A DNA stretch of 64,000 bases from Streptomyces umbrinus. GTDB taxonomy: Bacteria; Actinomycetota; Actinomycetes; Streptomycetales; Streptomycetaceae. The position numbers were made by a program, and so were the translations under genes. Below the pieces are notes generated by a model. That model worked only from the letters and a program-made list of their open reading frames with translations, was not told where the DNA came from and made no database searches. Below, piece after piece: positions 1,864 to 39,568 of this stretch (positions within the stretch are counted from its first letter, which is position 1; the number at the start of each line of letters is the position of its first letter). The DNA lies in the NCBI RefSeq assembly GCF_030817415.1, contig NZ_JAUSZI010000002.1:3782001-3846000 (forward strand), read 5' to 3'.

Positions 1864-2271
1864 GTGAGCACCGAACCGTTCTTCCTCGCAGACTGCCGCG
1901 CCAGGCTCGCCTTCGACCTGCTCTCCAACACCTGGAACGCCGTGGTCCTCTGGGCGCTGCGGCACGGGCCCCGGCGGCCGGGCGAACTGCGTGAACACAT
2001 CGGCGGGATCAGCCAGAAGGTCCTGACGGAGACCCTTCGGCGGCTGGAGTTCAACGGTCTGGTCGTGCGGCGCGCGTACGCCGGGTCGCCGCCCCGGGTG
2101 GAGTACGAACTCACCGCACTGGGGCGGACGTTGCTCGACCCCATCGAGGCGTTCGGGGCGTGGGCCTTCGACCACGGCGACGAGGTGATGGCGGCCCAGG
2201 ACCGGGCAACTAGCCCGTCACCCGCGACTTCTGACGGACCGTCGCCGCATCGGCCGGGGTCGAGCGCGTGA
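1864..2271 (+). CDS. HxlR-family winged-helix transcriptional regulator
   Basis: A 135-aa protein from GTG 1864. The core DLLSNTWNAVVLWALRHGPRRPGEL...GGISQKVLTETLRRLEFNGLVVRRAY...RVEYELTALGRTLLDPI is the HxlR winged helix-turn-helix with its wing. There is no N-terminal Cys of the HypR type, but a Cys occurs at residue 11 (ADCRARL). It is divergent to the NAD(P) reductase, the usual arrangement for HxlR regulators of redox enzymes. The C-terminal ~25 residues (ATSPSPATSDG...) are low complexity and lie over the 3' end of the convergent sigma factor gene, a 62-bp overlap, so the last part of the protein may be dispensable. Confidence 0.85.
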   Translation: MSTEPFFLADCRARLAFDLLSNTWNAVVLWALRHGPRRPGELREHIGGISQKVLTETLRRLEFNGLVVRRAYAGSPPRVEYELTALGRTLLDPIEAFGAWAFDHGDEVMAAQDRATSPSPATSDGPSPHRPGSSA

Positions 2272-3931
2272 CGTACTGGGGAATCGGTGCCGTGTCCTTT
2301 CCGGTGTCGCGGACCAGGCCGTAGCGGATGGCGCCCTGGGCGGGGCCGGTCATGACGTCCTTGGTCACGGCGTCCCGGTTCGACGGGAAGACGATCAGCC
2401 CGTAGTCGGCGCCCCGCTCGTTCTGGGTGAGGGTGACGGTGCCGTCGACGTAGAAGTACTCGTTCTGCCACATCTGCTGGGTGCCGGTCGGCAGGACGGT
2501 GTATCCGACACGTGGTCCGCCCATGCCGGAGGTGTAGCCGTCGGCGTTCTCCGCGAAGGTGTCGTCCATCCGGCGGCCGCCGCCCGAGGCCACGTGGAAC
2601 AGCTTCCCCTTGAGGCCGGTCCAGGCCGGCATGACCAGGGCGCCGGGCCGCGACTTGGGGGAGATCTGCCAGCGCACCAGCACATAGCCCTGGCCGGTGA
2701 GCGTCACGCTGTCCCCGCGGTGCTGCATCACGGCCTTGGGTCCGCCGGTGCTGGTGAGCCCGGACTCGGGGCGGCGCGGCAGGTCCGCGGGCCGCGCGTT
2801 CGGGTCCGGGGCCCTGTCGAGGGCGTCGACGACCGTGCCGTACAGGTCCTTACGGGTTCTGCTGGGGGACGGTGACGGGCTGGGCGTCGCGGTGGGGCTC
2901 GGTGCCTTCGGGCGCGAAGTGCTCGCCGCCGTGGGCGGGGCGGCGGCCTTGGGCGGGGCCGAGTCCGGCTGGGTGACGACGTACGCGCCGCCCGCGACGA
3001 TGGTCGCCCCGGCCGTCATGGCGACGGCGGGCTTGGTGAGCGCGGCGACGACCTTGGCGGACCAGCCGACCCCCGTGGCGGCGGTCGTCGCGGCGACCGC
3101 CGTCTTGCCGCCGAGGGCGAGCGAGAGCGTGAAGCCGACCGGGATCGGGACGAGCGCGAGCCCGACGAGCAGCCGTTCGGCCGGTACGACCGCCTCGCCG
3201 GGCGCGGCGCAGTGGCGGCAGCCGCGGATGTGCCGGGCCAGCCGTTTGCGCCACACCGAGTCGGGGCGGCCGTCCCAGCGGGCGGTCAGCTCACGCAGTT
3301 CGGGGCAGGACGAGTCGAGGGCCCGCACGATGCCGCGCGCGGCCTCCAGGCGGGCCTTCATCCGCTGGACACGTACGGCGGTGTGCTGGCGGCTGATGCC
3401 GACGGCCGCCGCCAGTTCGCGCCGGGTGAGTTCGCCCGCGACCTCCAGCCACCACAGGGACAGCAGTTGCCGGTCCTCGTCGTCGAGCCAGCGCACCGCC
3501 TCCGCGACCTCGCGCCGCTGGCCCTCCAACTGGAGCCGCAGCACGGTGAGTTCGGCGAAGTCGGTGGCTTCCTGGGCCGCGTCGTCGGCCAGTGACTCGG
3601 AGGTCCGGCGTCTGGCCCGGTCGCGTATCTGCCGCATGGCGATGGCGACCAGCCAGGAGCGGAAGCTGTCCGGGTCACGCAGGGTGCCGAGGTTGTCGAC
3701 GGCCCGCAGCATGGTCTCCTGCACGACGTCGTCGACGTCCGCGTGACCGTTCAGCGCGCGGCCGACGATGTTGTAGACCAGCGGCAGCCAGCCCTCGACG
3801 AGTTCGTCGAGCGCGCGCCGGTCACCGGCCTGCGCCGCCGCGATCGTCGTACGCCACTGCCGCCCGTTCACGTACGTCCCTTCCACGTACGTCCCATTAT
3901 TCACGTACGTCCCTTTCCGGAGAGGTGTCAC
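2210..3931 (-). CDS. ECF-like sigma factor fused to zinc-motif, hydrophobic segments and a C-terminal domain
   Basis: A 573-aa protein. Residues ~35-105 are sigma region 2 (VYNIVGRALNGHADVDDVVQ, then DPDSFRSWLVAIA) and ~130-200 are region 4 with a helix-turn-helix (RRELAAAVGISRQHTAVRVQ). Residues 234-241 (HIRGCRHC) form an H-x3-C-x2-C motif like that of zinc-binding anti-sigma domains. Two hydrophobic stretches follow (~255-275, ~300-320), then a Ser/Thr/Pro linker and ~190 residues of unrecognised C-terminal domain. The GTG at 3931 overlaps the TGA of the alginate-lyase-like gene (GTGA), suggesting translational coupling. In-frame GTGs at 3904, 3886 and 3871 each follow a GGGACGTAC block and are alternative starts. 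It appears to be a self-contained, membrane-linked sigma regulator; its target is unknown. Confidence 0.85.
   Translation of the reverse strand: MTPLRKGTYVNNGTYVEGTYVNGRQWRTTIAAAQAGDRRALDELVEGWLPLVYNIVGRALNGHADVDDVVQETMLRAVDNLGTLRDPDSFRSWLVAIAMRQIRDRARRRTSESLADDAAQEATDFAELTVLRLQLEGQRREVAEAVRWLDDEDRQLLSLWWLEVAGELTRRELAAAVGISRQHTAVRVQRMKARLEAARGIVRALDSSCPELRELTARWDGRPDSVWRKRLARHIRGCRHCAAPGEAVVPAERLLVGLALVPIPVGFTLSLALGGKTAVAATTAATGVGWSAKVVAALTKPAVAMTAGATIVAGGAYVVTQPDSAPPKAAAPPTAASTSRPKAPSPTATPSPSPSPSRTRKDLYGTVVDALDRAPDPNARPADLPRRPESGLTSTGGPKAVMQHRGDSVTLTGQGYVLVRWQISPKSRPGALVMPAWTGLKGKLFHVASGGGRRMDDTFAENADGYTSGMGGPRVGYTVLPTGTQQMWQNEYFYVDGTVTLTQNERGADYGLIVFPSNRDAVTKDVMTGPAQGAIRYGLVRDTGKDTAPIPQYVTRSTPADAATVRQKSRVTG
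3869..3913 (-). repeat. Three direct copies of GGGACGTACGTG at the sigma-factor start
   Basis: On the minus strand the 12-mer GGGACGTACGTG occurs at 3913-3902, 3895-3884 and 3880-3869. Each copy places a purine-rich AAGGG/ATGGG/GAAGGG block six bases before an in-frame GTG, so each could act as a ribosome-binding-site plus start unit. The core ACGTACGT is self-complementary. Confidence 0.85.
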
Positions 3932-5202
3932 TTGGCGTAGAGCAGCGTCCCGAAGCCGAGCTGGTCGAAGCCGCCGCTGTTCGGGCCGTAGTCACCGCCT
4001 CCGCCTTCCGCACGCACCTTCTCAGCCATGGCCGTGATGTTCGGAACGGAGAGCCGACGGCGGCGCGCGTAGTGGTAGTGCAGGATCTCCCAAACGGGAC
4101 GAGTCTCTCCACGCGCTATGCCGGAGATCACAGACTGCTCGTTGTACTTGCCCCTCCCGGTGCCGCTGCGCCAGGTGTACTTGGTGAAGGGCACGTCGCC
4201 ACCGAGGTTGTACCTGGCGACGTACTCGGCGCCCTTCATGAACCGGCTGTCGTCGTAGCCGTAGAGGTCGACGCCCTGGTTCCAGGCCATCTCGCAGATC
4301 GCGCCCATCTGGCCCACGCCCATCGCGGTGTGCCCCTGGTCGCGGCCGGACTCCTGCCACTGGGCGAGGTCGTCGGACTCGTGGACGAAGGGGATGGCGT
4401 TCCCGATCGAGCCGTTGCCCGCGCCCTTCTTGAAGTAGTCCACCGCGCGGTCGAACAGGGCCCTGTCGTCGCAGAGGATACCGATCGCCATGACCGAAGC
4501 CACGTTGCACAGGTCCCAGTTGGCCCAGTAGTTGGTGATGACGGCGCCGTTGTGGTGGGTGAGGAAGTCCTCGTTCATGGGGTGGAAGACCTTGAGCATC
4601 ATCTTCTGGAAGCGGGCCAGGTCGAAGCCGTCGTGGTCGCGCACCAGCTCGGCGGCGTTGGCGAACTGGTAGCCGTAGAGCCCGGCGGCCAGGAACCGGT
4701 CGGCGTTGCCGGTGACCGTGGTGAGCGTGGCCGACCAGGCGTTGAGGATCGCGACGGCCGCCTCGGCGTTCTCCTTCGTGCCCGCGATCTTCCAGCGCAG
4801 GGCGTTCTGGTAGGCGGCGTGGATGTCGTTGTAGAGGGACACGTAGTTCTGGCCGGTGCCGCCGCGGACGACCGTGGCCTGCGGCCTGGGGGCCCAGGTA
4901 CTCGCGGAGTGCCGGTTGGCGGTCAGCCGCTGCCAGCCCGCCGTCCAGGGTTCCCGGCGGGCGGCGACGCGCACCTTGGCCCGGTTGAGGTCGCCCGCGT
5001 TGTGCAGCATTCCGGGGTGCGCGAAGACCGGCCTCCCGGCGGACTCGCCGGGCGACGGGGAGGCACCGGTCTGCGCCGCGTCGGCCGAGTCACCACCGCC
5101 CAACGAGACCGCGATACCGCCGACGGCTCCCGCGGCGGCGACACCACCGGCGATCTGGAGGGCGCTGCGGCGGCTGATGCGGTGCTTGTTGTGCTCTGCC
5201 AC
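3928..5202 (-). CDS. TAT-exported alginate-lyase-family polysaccharide lyase
   Basis: A 424-aa protein. The N-terminus carries a twin-arginine signal (ISRRSALQIAGGVAAAGAVGG) followed by an Ala-rich cleavage region, so it is predicted to be exported. The mature part has features of alginate_lyase (PF05426-like) alpha/alpha-toroid enzymes: an N-terminal HPGMLHNAGDLNRAKVRV segment, ITNYWANWDLCNVASVMAIG and ESGRDQGHTAMGVGQM, where Asn, Arg and His residues are typical of the active cleft. Alginate lyases cleave uronate polymers by beta-elimination; the actual substrate here is inferred only. It is the first gene of a two-gene unit with the membrane-linked sigma factor, whose GTG overlaps its TGA. 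Confidence 0.82.
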   Translation of the reverse strand: MAEHNKHRISRRSALQIAGGVAAAGAVGGIAVSLGGGDSADAAQTGASPSPGESAGRPVFAHPGMLHNAGDLNRAKVRVAARREPWTAGWQRLTANRHSASTWAPRPQATVVRGGTGQNYVSLYNDIHAAYQNALRWKIAGTKENAEAAVAILNAWSATLTTVTGNADRFLAAGLYGYQFANAAELVRDHDGFDLARFQKMMLKVFHPMNEDFLTHHNGAVITNYWANWDLCNVASVMAIGILCDDRALFDRAVDYFKKGAGNGSIGNAIPFVHESDDLAQWQESGRDQGHTAMGVGQMGAICEMAWNQGVDLYGYDDSRFMKGAEYVARYNLGGDVPFTKYTWRSGTGRGKYNEQSVISGIARGETRPVWEILHYHYARRRRLSVPNITAMAEKVRAEGGGGDYGPNSGGFDQLGFGTLLYAK

Positions 5203-5282: not shown

Positions 5283-5486
5283 AGGAGACGGAGGAGAGGC
5301 TTCCGGGATAACAGTTTTTCTCGTGAAGGCATGCGTCGCCCTAGGGGCAACCCCTGACAACACCCTTGTCCCGCACGGCAGTTGATGAGGGTCGCGGCCA
5401 GGGTCGGTGCCCTCCTCGGAGAGGATCCGCGGCAACGGCGTACGACCGGAGGATGAAGGTCACCGACCACCCCTTGGAGTCAGCCG

Positions 5487-6659
5487 ATGCATCTCCGTAT
5501 CCGTACCGCCTGTGCCGCCGTCGTGTTCCTGGGCCTCACCGCGGGGCCCCTGGCCGGGACCGCGCTCGCCGCCCCCTCGCCCACGGCGGTCGTACGGGAG
5601 ACCGTGAGTCCGAAGACCGTGAGTCCGAAGACCGACAAGGCCTTACGCGAGGCGCTGAAGGGAATTCCGGACAAGGACACGACGGCAGCGCTCGTACGCG
5701 TCGGGGGCAAGGCCGGCACCTGGCGGGGCAGCGCCGGGGTGCACGACCTGGGGAGTGGCCGCAAGGCTCTGGAACACGGGCGTTTCAGGGCCGGTTCGAC
5801 CACCAAGGTGGTCACCGCGGCCGTCGTGCTGCAGCTCGCCGCCGAAGGCAGGATCGACCTGGACGGACACGTCCAGACCTACCTCCCCGGCCTCCTCTCG
5901 AAGGCCTTCAAGCCCATCACCGTACGGCAGTTGCTGACCTTCACCAGCGGGCTGAAGCCGGGAGCGACGCTGGGTGACGTGAACGGTGAGGGGTACGAGC
6001 GGCGGTTCGAGACGCTGACCCCGGAGGCGGTCGTGGCCTCGTCCGTCGCCGCCGGCCCCGCCTTCTGCCCGGGCGAGCGGCAGAAGTACGCCAACATCGA
6101 CTACACCGTGCTCGGCCTGATCATCGAGAAGGTCACCCGCGACACCTACGAGCACCAGGCGGCCGTACGGGTCCTGCGGCCGGCCGGGATGCGTCACACG
6201 TCCTTCCCCGGCGGGCACGACCCCCGTATCCACGGCCCGCACAACCGCGGCTACCAGATCCTGGCGGACGGCAGGCTGGTGGACGCCACCGAGTGGAACA
6301 TGTCGGACCGGTGGGCCGCGGGCGACATGATCTCCACGACTCAGGACCTGGAGCGCCTGCTCTTCGCGCTGTTCCGCGGCCGCCTGGTCCCCCAACCCCT
6401 CCTGGACAAGGAGATGTTCACGCTCCCGGACGTGCCGAACGCGACGATGAGCGCCGGTCTCCAGCAGTTCAAGCTCGACGACGACACAGTCATCTGGGCC
6501 AAATCCGGCGCCAGGCCCGGCTACAGCACCGCGATCGCCGCCACACGCAATCTGTCCCGCACCCTCGTGTACTCGGTGAACGCGACCGACGCGAAGAGCG
6601 AGGAGATGAATCCGGTGGCGGAGCGGATCGTGGGGGCGGCGTTCGGAACGGGGAGCTGA
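5487..6659 (+). CDS. Secreted serine hydrolase (beta-lactamase / D-Ala-D-Ala carboxypeptidase family)
   Basis: A 390-aa protein with a Sec signal peptide (MHLRIRTACAAVVFLGL, then AGTALA). The penicillin-binding fold motifs are present in order: S-x-x-K as STTK in FRAGSTTKVVTAAV (residues ~107-115), Y-x-N as YANIDY, and the third-box KSG in IWAKSGARPGYS. These support a class C-like serine hydrolase such as Streptomyces R61-type D-alanyl-D-alanine carboxypeptidase acting on peptidoglycan stem peptides. The ATG at 5487 has a TTGGAG block about eight bases upstream. A 15-bp tandem duplication (5603-5632) gives VSPKTVSPKT just after the signal peptide. The gene stands alone. Confidence 0.9.
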   Translation: MHLRIRTACAAVVFLGLTAGPLAGTALAAPSPTAVVRETVSPKTVSPKTDKALREALKGIPDKDTTAALVRVGGKAGTWRGSAGVHDLGSGRKALEHGRFRAGSTTKVVTAAVVLQLAAEGRIDLDGHVQTYLPGLLSKAFKPITVRQLLTFTSGLKPGATLGDVNGEGYERRFETLTPEAVVASSVAAGPAFCPGERQKYANIDYTVLGLIIEKVTRDTYEHQAAVRVLRPAGMRHTSFPGGHDPRIHGPHNRGYQILADGRLVDATEWNMSDRWAAGDMISTTQDLERLLFALFRGRLVPQPLLDKEMFTLPDVPNATMSAGLQQFKLDDDTVIWAKSGARPGYSTAIAATRNLSRTLVYSVNATDAKSEEMNPVAERIVGAAFGTGS

Positions 6660-38731: not shown

Positions 38732-39568
38732 TCAGCGTCCGAAGCTCGCCAGCTTGGCGCGGAGCTGGAGGACGGACTTGGTGTGGATCTGGCTGACCCG
38801 GCTCTCCGTCACACCCAGGACGTTGCCGATCTCTGCGAGTGTGAGTCCCTCGTAGTAGTAGAGCGTGACGACGGTCTTCTCGCGCTCGGGCAGCGTGTTG
38901 ATGGCACGTGCCAGGAAGCGCCGCAGTTCCCGGTCCTCGGCGACCTCCACGGGGTTGTCAGCCGCGGTGTCCTCAAGGGTGTCCATCAGGCTCAGCCGGT
39001 CGCCGCCCTCACCGCCGACATGCAGCAGTTCCTCCAGGGCGACCACGTTCGCCAGCGACAACTGGCTGAACACCGCATGCAGTTCGTCAACCGGGATGCC
39101 CATCTCGCCGGCCACCTCGCACTCCGACGGCGTACGCCGCAGCCGTGCCTCCAGCGTCGCGTAGGCCCGCTCGACATTGCGCGCCTTCTGCCGCACGGAA
39201 CGCGGGATCCAGTCCAGCGCCCTCAGCTCGTCGATCATCGCGCCCCGGATCCGCGTGATCGCGTACGTCTCGAACTTGATCTCCCGCTCGATGTCGAACT
39301 TCTCGATGGCGTCGATCAGCCCGAACACACCCGACGAGACGAAGTCCGCCTGCTCCACGTTGGGCGGCAGGCCCACACTCACCCGGCCCGCGACGTACTT
39401 CACCAGCGGCGAGTAGTGGAGGATCAGCTGCTCGCGCAGTCGCTCGTCGCCCGTGGTCTTGTACGACCTCCACAGCTCGTCGAGCGTCGAGGGGGCGGGC
39501 GGCCGCACGCCGCCGCGGGCAGCGGGGGGAACAGCCGCCCGGTCAGACCCGGAGGTGTGCTGGGGCAT
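38732..39568 (-). CDS. whiG: RNA polymerase sigma factor WhiG
   Basis: A sigma-28/FliA-family factor that commits aerial hyphae to sporulation in Streptomyces; it is held inactive by RsiG with c-di-GMP (established knowledge). The 278-aa product starts [12 protein letters not shown] with AAGGCG four bases upstream. Region 2 is [20 protein letters not shown] then [20 protein letters not shown], region 3 [20 protein letters not shown], and region 4 [20 protein letters not shown] then [20 protein letters not shown]. The longer open frame upstream is a shadow of dprA. A 272-bp gap to dprA holds its promoter region. It is monocistronic by layout. Confidence 0.97.

Follow-up and report, generated by a model that had tools for sequence, protein, structure and literature searches.

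A Streptomyces sigma factor fused to a zinc-type anti-sigma segment, with a conserved promoter motif and a small set of predicted surface targets

Introduction

Catalogues of actinobacterial sigma factors include proteins fused to their own membrane inhibitor, and of the groups ECF48, ECF52 and ECF53 the best understood member in the accounts considered here is the pleiotropic SCO4117. In the window, as the whole analysed stretch of 64,000 nucleotides from Streptomyces umbrinus is called here, a 573-residue open reading frame on the minus strand (2210-3931) runs as a single chain from sigma regions 2 and 4 through to a C-terminal domain, and lies behind a gene of the alginate lyase family. The locus raises the questions of how such a sigma factor would be held and released, and of which genes it would read.

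Extent and sigma domains of the fusion gene

The preliminary description placed sigma regions 2 and 4 in one chain, and profile matches bear this out clearly. Region 2 (residues 44-110; 3602-3802, minus strand) matches PF04542 with 57.3 bits against a cut-off of 24, and TIGR02937 scores 85.4 bits against a cut-off of 42.9 over residues 40-196, both above their thresholds for membership of the ECF sigma factors. Region 4 occupies about residues 146-196 (3344-3496, minus strand), where the TIGR02937 match extends to residue 196 and helices appear in the structure model; the full-length model has an overall pLDDT of 63.9, falling below 50 in the membrane region. Relatives were collected by a scan of genome contigs; of the 529 places confirmed, the best 80 were retained, 79 in Streptomyces and one in Micromonospora. 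The resulting alignment comprises the window and 79 loci, 80 rows in all, L069 being left out because its frame was not traced, and among these best 80 of 529 places identity to the window ranges from 60 to 89%. Conservation at this level excludes a chance reading frame and confirms that the observed fusion architecture is real.

Translation probably begins not at 3931 but at residue 21 (GTG 3871), as the first 20 residues of the frame are poorly conserved in the alignment and 54 of 79 rows (best 80 of 529 places, L086 being gapped there) have GTG as the codon opposite residue 21. The reading frame list and the alignment thus give a gene likely to span 2210-3871 on the minus strand. In its start region (3869-3913, minus strand) GGGACGTACGTG is present three times in frame, every copy supplying a GTG and a run that resembles a ribosome site, and this triplication was seen in none of the 17 relatives inspected. 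Elsewhere in the window another sigma-70 type match (TIGR02937, 120.8 bits) lies at about 38750-39439 on the minus strand, within an open frame of 758 codons.

Hydrophobic segments and the C-terminal domain

Two hydrophobic stretches, a Pro/Ser/Thr linker and a large C-terminal domain had also been described, and all three are present. On the Kyte-Doolittle scale the first segment (residues 247-265; 3137-3193, minus strand) has a hydropathy of 1.73, and the second (about residues 294-319; 2975-3052, minus strand) peaks at 1.57 over residues 294-312. The second is a likely membrane span, while the first may be a span or the equivalent of anti-sigma helix 4. The linker (2852-2971, minus strand) is about 60% Pro, Ser and Thr, and its sequence is variable among the aligned relatives. 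The C-terminal domain (2213-2851, minus strand) is well conserved, and the stretches FHVAS, RMDD and WQNE do not vary in alignments of 39 and 56 rows. Modelled alone it gives a confident, nearly all-beta AlphaFold2 structure (pLDDT 90.3, pTM 0.90), for which the PDB and viral structure libraries gave no confident match, and it is presumed to be a sensor outside the cell.

The probable orientation of this domain can be approached through sister proteins. Related stretches matching only the sigma part plus the zinc motif occur in most of the 20 genomes without the promoter motif described below, and in several genomes that have it. Nine sisters were fetched; L193 gave no protein match, and of the eight scanned (L187-L192, L194, L195) seven end in a CAP domain and one in an AbfB domain. 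Such sisters have the sigma part and zinc motif in common with the window protein (61 and 57% identity over these parts in the two that were compared) but differ from it in the C-terminal domain. CAP and AbfB domains are usually secreted, and several sisters have a basic run just ahead of the second hydrophobic segment; these two features favour one net membrane crossing, which would place the C-terminal domain outside. The alternative that both segments span the membrane, leaving the C-terminal domain inside to sense a ligand in the cytoplasm, for instance a product of sugar breakdown, appears unlikely: the basic runs would hold the loop inside, and the usually secreted sister domains and the Pro/Ser/Thr stalk also speak against it. 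It draws on the presence of two segments, the first of which is the more hydrophobic both in the window protein and in sister L191 (where it alone exceeds 1.5), and on the one to two helices that PMC8999054 describes, in its account of these groups, for ECF52/53-type proteins. The first segment may be the counterpart of helix 4, which according to the relevant part of PMC7406223 binds sigma2 in class I anti-sigma factors.

The zinc-type anti-sigma motif

The H-x3-C-x2-C motif that had been noticed at residues 234-241 (HIRGCRHC) can be extended by a fourth conserved ligand candidate, C209. The full motif, C209-x24-H234-x3-C238-x2-C241 (3209-3307, minus strand), has all four residues invariant and its spacing constant in 80 of 80 rows (best 80 of 529 places). 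The window protein contains three cysteines, all inside the motif, and 66 of the 80 rows, from the same best 80 of 529, hold three cysteines in their last 545 residues. The Pfam zf-HC2 profile gives 10 bits against a curated cut-off of 22.2, so the window protein is not classed as zf-HC2 and the prediction that the motif binds zinc rests on conservation.

In RsrA, oxidation of the zinc cysteines frees the sigma factor. A cytoplasm-facing redox switch of that type, with the C-terminal domain as an accessory, would fit the additional ligand cysteine, which completes a CHCC set, and the confinement of all the cysteines of the window protein to the motif. It is nevertheless improbable, as the genes behind the promoter motif encode secreted proteins of polysaccharide type rather than thiol functions, and as the C-terminal domain is well conserved. 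Every one of the 80 rows has the Hx3Cx2C signature by which the passages on class I zinc anti-sigma domains in PMC7406223 define them, and the motif is stated there to occur in about 48% of the class I anti-sigma factors bound to membranes, with a role that may be structural, which likewise speaks against the redox reading.

The adjoining lyase gene

The first gene of the operon (3928-5202, minus strand) encodes a TAT-type protein of the alginate lyase family (PF05426, 57.9 bits against a cut-off of 22.2), and its frame has four bases (3928-3931) in common with the nominal 573-residue sigma frame. Its TAT signal match is below the cut-off (16 against 22.7), it has no solved structural relative at E up to 0.01, and its lyase activity is predicted from the family. 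Among the best 80 of 529 places a full lyase gene adjoins sigma in five relatives and a fragment in one, with some contigs ending near the locus (for example L065, L068 and L075), and the idea of the lyase as a fixed partner gene was dropped. The fragment, consisting of the last 69 residues, is at L007, the nearest relative of the window among the loci fetched. Upstream of sigma in 47 of the 73 loci without a full lyase (best 80 of 529 places), remains of the gene are found, defined as 16 or more matches out of 23 with the lyase 3' codons just before sigma, a level reached by 0.27% of single-base shuffles. The simplest reading of these remains is that lyase and sigma formed an ancestral operon from which the lyase may have been lost repeatedly. 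A mutual exclusion of operon lyase and separate lyase was also considered and dropped, since one genome (G242) has both (L201, L221).

Divergent from the operon at 5487-6659 on the plus strand lies a gene for a secreted serine-hydrolase-like protein (beta-lactamase type by eye); the intergenic region between them also contains the promoter described below, and homologues of this gene occur near sigma in many relatives.

Promoter motif

Ahead of the lyase-sigma operon stands a conserved ECF-type promoter, AAAAACTGTTATC-N16-CGTCTCC (5284-5319, minus strand), whose consensus upstream of sigma in the relatives is AAAAA[C/G]TGTTATC-N16-CGTCTCC. A somewhat looser regular expression recovers it at 77 of 81 loci, a set made up of the window and the best 80 of 529 places, with a spacer of 16 in 73 sites and 15 in four. 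Together with two sites recognised by inspection (L012, with one base changed, and L069, whose start was not traced), the promoter precedes sigma or its operon in 79 of these 81 loci, and it is absent from L085 and L086. Where a lyase gene precedes sigma (the window, L008, L012, L073, L082 and L084), the promoter is ahead of the lyase; otherwise it lies 69 to 441 bases upstream of the aligned sigma start. Ungapped scoring with the 37-base block of the window gives 24-34 at most sites and 19-23 at L026, L030, L034 and L082, and misses the site at L037; the top score within coding DNA is 22.

Predicted regulon across the genus

The motif core was found at 116 sites in 392 genomes of the genus. 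The first 121 genomes gave 35 sites in 21 genomes and the search of all 392 gave 81 further sites, with no hit of the reversed control in either. The genome of the window has the core twice, at the lyase-sigma operon and before a gene for a 728-residue secreted beta-helix-like protein, which has a weak repeat match only. Of the 35 sites in the first 121 genomes, one is the window operon, and of the other 34 loci BLAST assigned 17 to sigma, 7 to lyase and 9 to beta-helix genes, the last being L150, whose frame by eye retains only a lyase-like TAT signal. For 80 of the further sites the 1450 bases downstream were assigned by tblastn, the remaining site being excluded because a contig ends 70 bases away. 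Of these 80, 43 are sigma-like, 18 are lyase and 19 are beta-helix sites. As far as they were read, 39 of the 43 sigma-like sites resemble the orthologue, L233 being cut by a contig end and the match at L239 stopping at residue 264. The other four are L206 and L234, where the sigma promoter precedes an internally deleted sigma gene; L198, a chimera in which the sigma start behind the promoter passes into another sigma factor, with a separate anti-sigma-like frame after it; and L232, where a motif of the CGTCTCC form precedes a sister-type sigma gene that has 56% identity to that of the window and is similar by eye to L194. The candidate rule that an intact gene of one of the three families follows every site was dropped on account of these four, and L232 makes the exclusiveness of the motif incomplete.

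Altogether 115 sites could be read (56 sigma, 26 lyase, 28 beta-helix, four sigma or lyase remnants or chimera, and one sister sigma), and 110 of them precede a sigma gene of this type, an alginate-lyase-family gene or a secreted beta-helix-like gene. Because the motif was derived from sigma promoters, its presence at sigma and lyase-sigma sites is in part a matter of construction; 47 sites are independent of the derivation (28 beta-helix, 18 separate lyases and one lyase remnant). The coupling to a TAT-exported lyase that had been proposed from adjacency therefore goes beyond adjacency, one conserved promoter being placed before separate lyase and beta-helix genes as well, and this regulon also fits the suggested remodelling of a polymer outside the cell. 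An A-rich run heads the sigma sites and six operon-type lyase sites, behind five of which sigma was seen (not at L249), and TTT heads the beta-helix and separate lyase sites. In 9 of 9 beta-helix genes from the first set and 17 of 19 from the second, the first start codon that could be used comes 5-6 bases past the motif, which suggests that their messages may be leaderless. Three separate lyases that were read to the end carry LAATG followed by a hydrophobic tail, LAxTG being a sortase signal, and four beta-helix proteins have a hydrophobic, basic tail.

The neighbourhood of the beta-helix gene hints at pectin-type polymers as a theme: two GH43 genes, a GDSL esterase gene and a DUF2264 gene adjoin it in G000, a rhamnogalacturonan lyase gene is near it in G104, and homologues of one or more of the G000 neighbours occur in its vicinity in G009, G104 and G091. 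At L170 (4696-10092) the two GH43, the GDSL esterase and the DUF2264 genes are divergent from the beta-helix gene. The motif search in G000 found no site before the GH43, GDSL esterase or DUF2264 genes.

Co-occurrence of motif and sigma factor

Forty of the 121 genomes, namely the 20 motif genomes besides that of the window and the first 20 without the motif, were searched at the DNA level. A near-full-length sigma gene is present in 18 of the 20 motif genomes as against 1 of the 20 others (Fisher 6e-8, for genomes of one genus that are not independent). In G099 the sigma gene is split between two contigs. G101 (L186 and L177) displays a joint decay of regulator and target, as sigma is internally deleted and, elsewhere in the genome, the sole motif site is followed only by what remains of a lyase-like signal peptide. 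The exceptional motif-less genome with sigma, G013, has a variant motif ending in CGTCCCC before its sigma gene. That a different sigma factor reads the motif and the fusion protein is merely one of its targets is very unlikely in view of this co-occurrence, the joint decay in G101 and the position of the motif before the gene or operon in nearly all loci, even though one site precedes a sister sigma gene and the genome has at least 144 sigma-70 type matches (E up to 0.001, many of them partial, with 150 of 358 candidates scored).

Sister sigma factors and known systems

TGTTATC is also found upstream of four of the eight sisters (L188, L190, L192 and L194), followed by a -10 element of GATCTCC or GGTCTCC and not CGTCTCC. 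It is possible, at somewhat less than an even chance, that the window protein belongs to a Streptomyces family in which a constant unit of sigma factor and zinc-type inhibitor is combined with swappable outside sensors (CAP, AbfB or the beta domain) and private sets of surface genes. The same tentative proposal would have the subfamilies retain a common -35 element, TGTTATC, and differ mostly in the -10 element.

The architecture itself is known in kind from ECF48, ECF52 and ECF53, and the new part comprises the promoter, the regulon and the swapping of sensors. In their passages on ECF53, PMC8999054 and PMC10766802 describe proteins in which a ZAS-type zinc finger, one or two membrane helices and an extension that can reach 400 residues are fused at the C-terminus, and mention predicted glycosyl hydrolase and carbohydrate-binding domains in some ECF52/53 members. 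The window protein fits this description (PMC8999054) in its ZAS-type motif, its helices, as judged by hydropathy only, and its long extension, and is likened to ECF53 on that descriptive basis; unlike the members with predicted domains, its C-terminal domain has no assigned family. Those ECF53 passages give no regulon or promoter (PMC8999054, PMC10766802). The parts of PMC5826349 on SCO4117 of S. coelicolor (ECF52) present the same order of sigma, zinc finger, membrane segment, Pro-rich stalk and carbohydrate-related domain, but with a smart00776 carbohydrate module at the end, pleiotropic effects and a different proposed motif, CSGYN-17-SRHA. Assignment of the window protein to ECF52 was rejected, as it has no NPCBM match at E up to 1 and no significant BLASTP kinship (best E 6.8) to L123, which is called ECF52-like by its domains. 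L123 (497-2233, plus strand), in the genome of the window, is a sigma factor with zf-HC2 and NPCBM.

Activation by proteolysis is expected for ECF48, ECF52 and ECF53 in the account of PMC8999054, and a truncated form of SCO4117 was taken as support for it in that of PMC5826349. IutY (ECF243) likewise combines a sigma factor with a membrane anti-sigma part and is released by proteolysis, as may be the case here, but it serves an iron-siderophore system in Pseudomonas, according to PMC8999054. The preliminary suggestion of a sigma factor with its own membrane-linked anti-sigma control thus gains from the invariant motif, the CAP- and AbfB-ended sisters and the fit to what has been published, as far as those accounts go, for ECF48/52/53.

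Proposed mechanism and implications

The reading that is probable overall is that of a membrane-tethered one-component sigma factor with an outside sensor, reading the lyase, the beta-helix and its own promoters. The sigma2-sigma4 unit would be kept inactive at the inner face of the membrane by the fused zinc-type anti-sigma segment, while a single net crossing and the Pro/Ser/Thr stalk would hold the beta-rich sensor on the outer side. A signal related to the wall or to polysaccharides may then release the sigma unit, through cleavage or conformational change, and RNA polymerase with the freed sigma would read TGTTATC-N16-CGTCTCC promoters. The predicted targets would be its own gene, in a positive feedback, the alginate-lyase-family protein and the secreted beta-helix-like protein. 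We infer the nature of the signal, the release step, the reading of its own motif by the sigma factor and the sensing of an outside polymer that was suggested earlier. In the SigI/RsgI systems of cellulolytic clostridia, an outside polysaccharide-sensing part governs a sigma factor for secreted carbohydrate enzymes. The system proposed here would work in a like manner, but SigI/RsgI consists of two proteins and its sigma factor is not of the ECF type, and no relation is claimed.

The sharp promoter and the small regulon make one fused sigma factor testable, and the regulon indicates a surface polymer as its theme. The sensor domain, with its confident model and without an assigned family, is a target for structure determination. 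If the proposal of a family with swappable sensors is true, each outside cue would turn on its own very small group of surface genes, and here that set, consisting of the sigma factor itself, the lyase and the beta-helix protein, would be close to complete.
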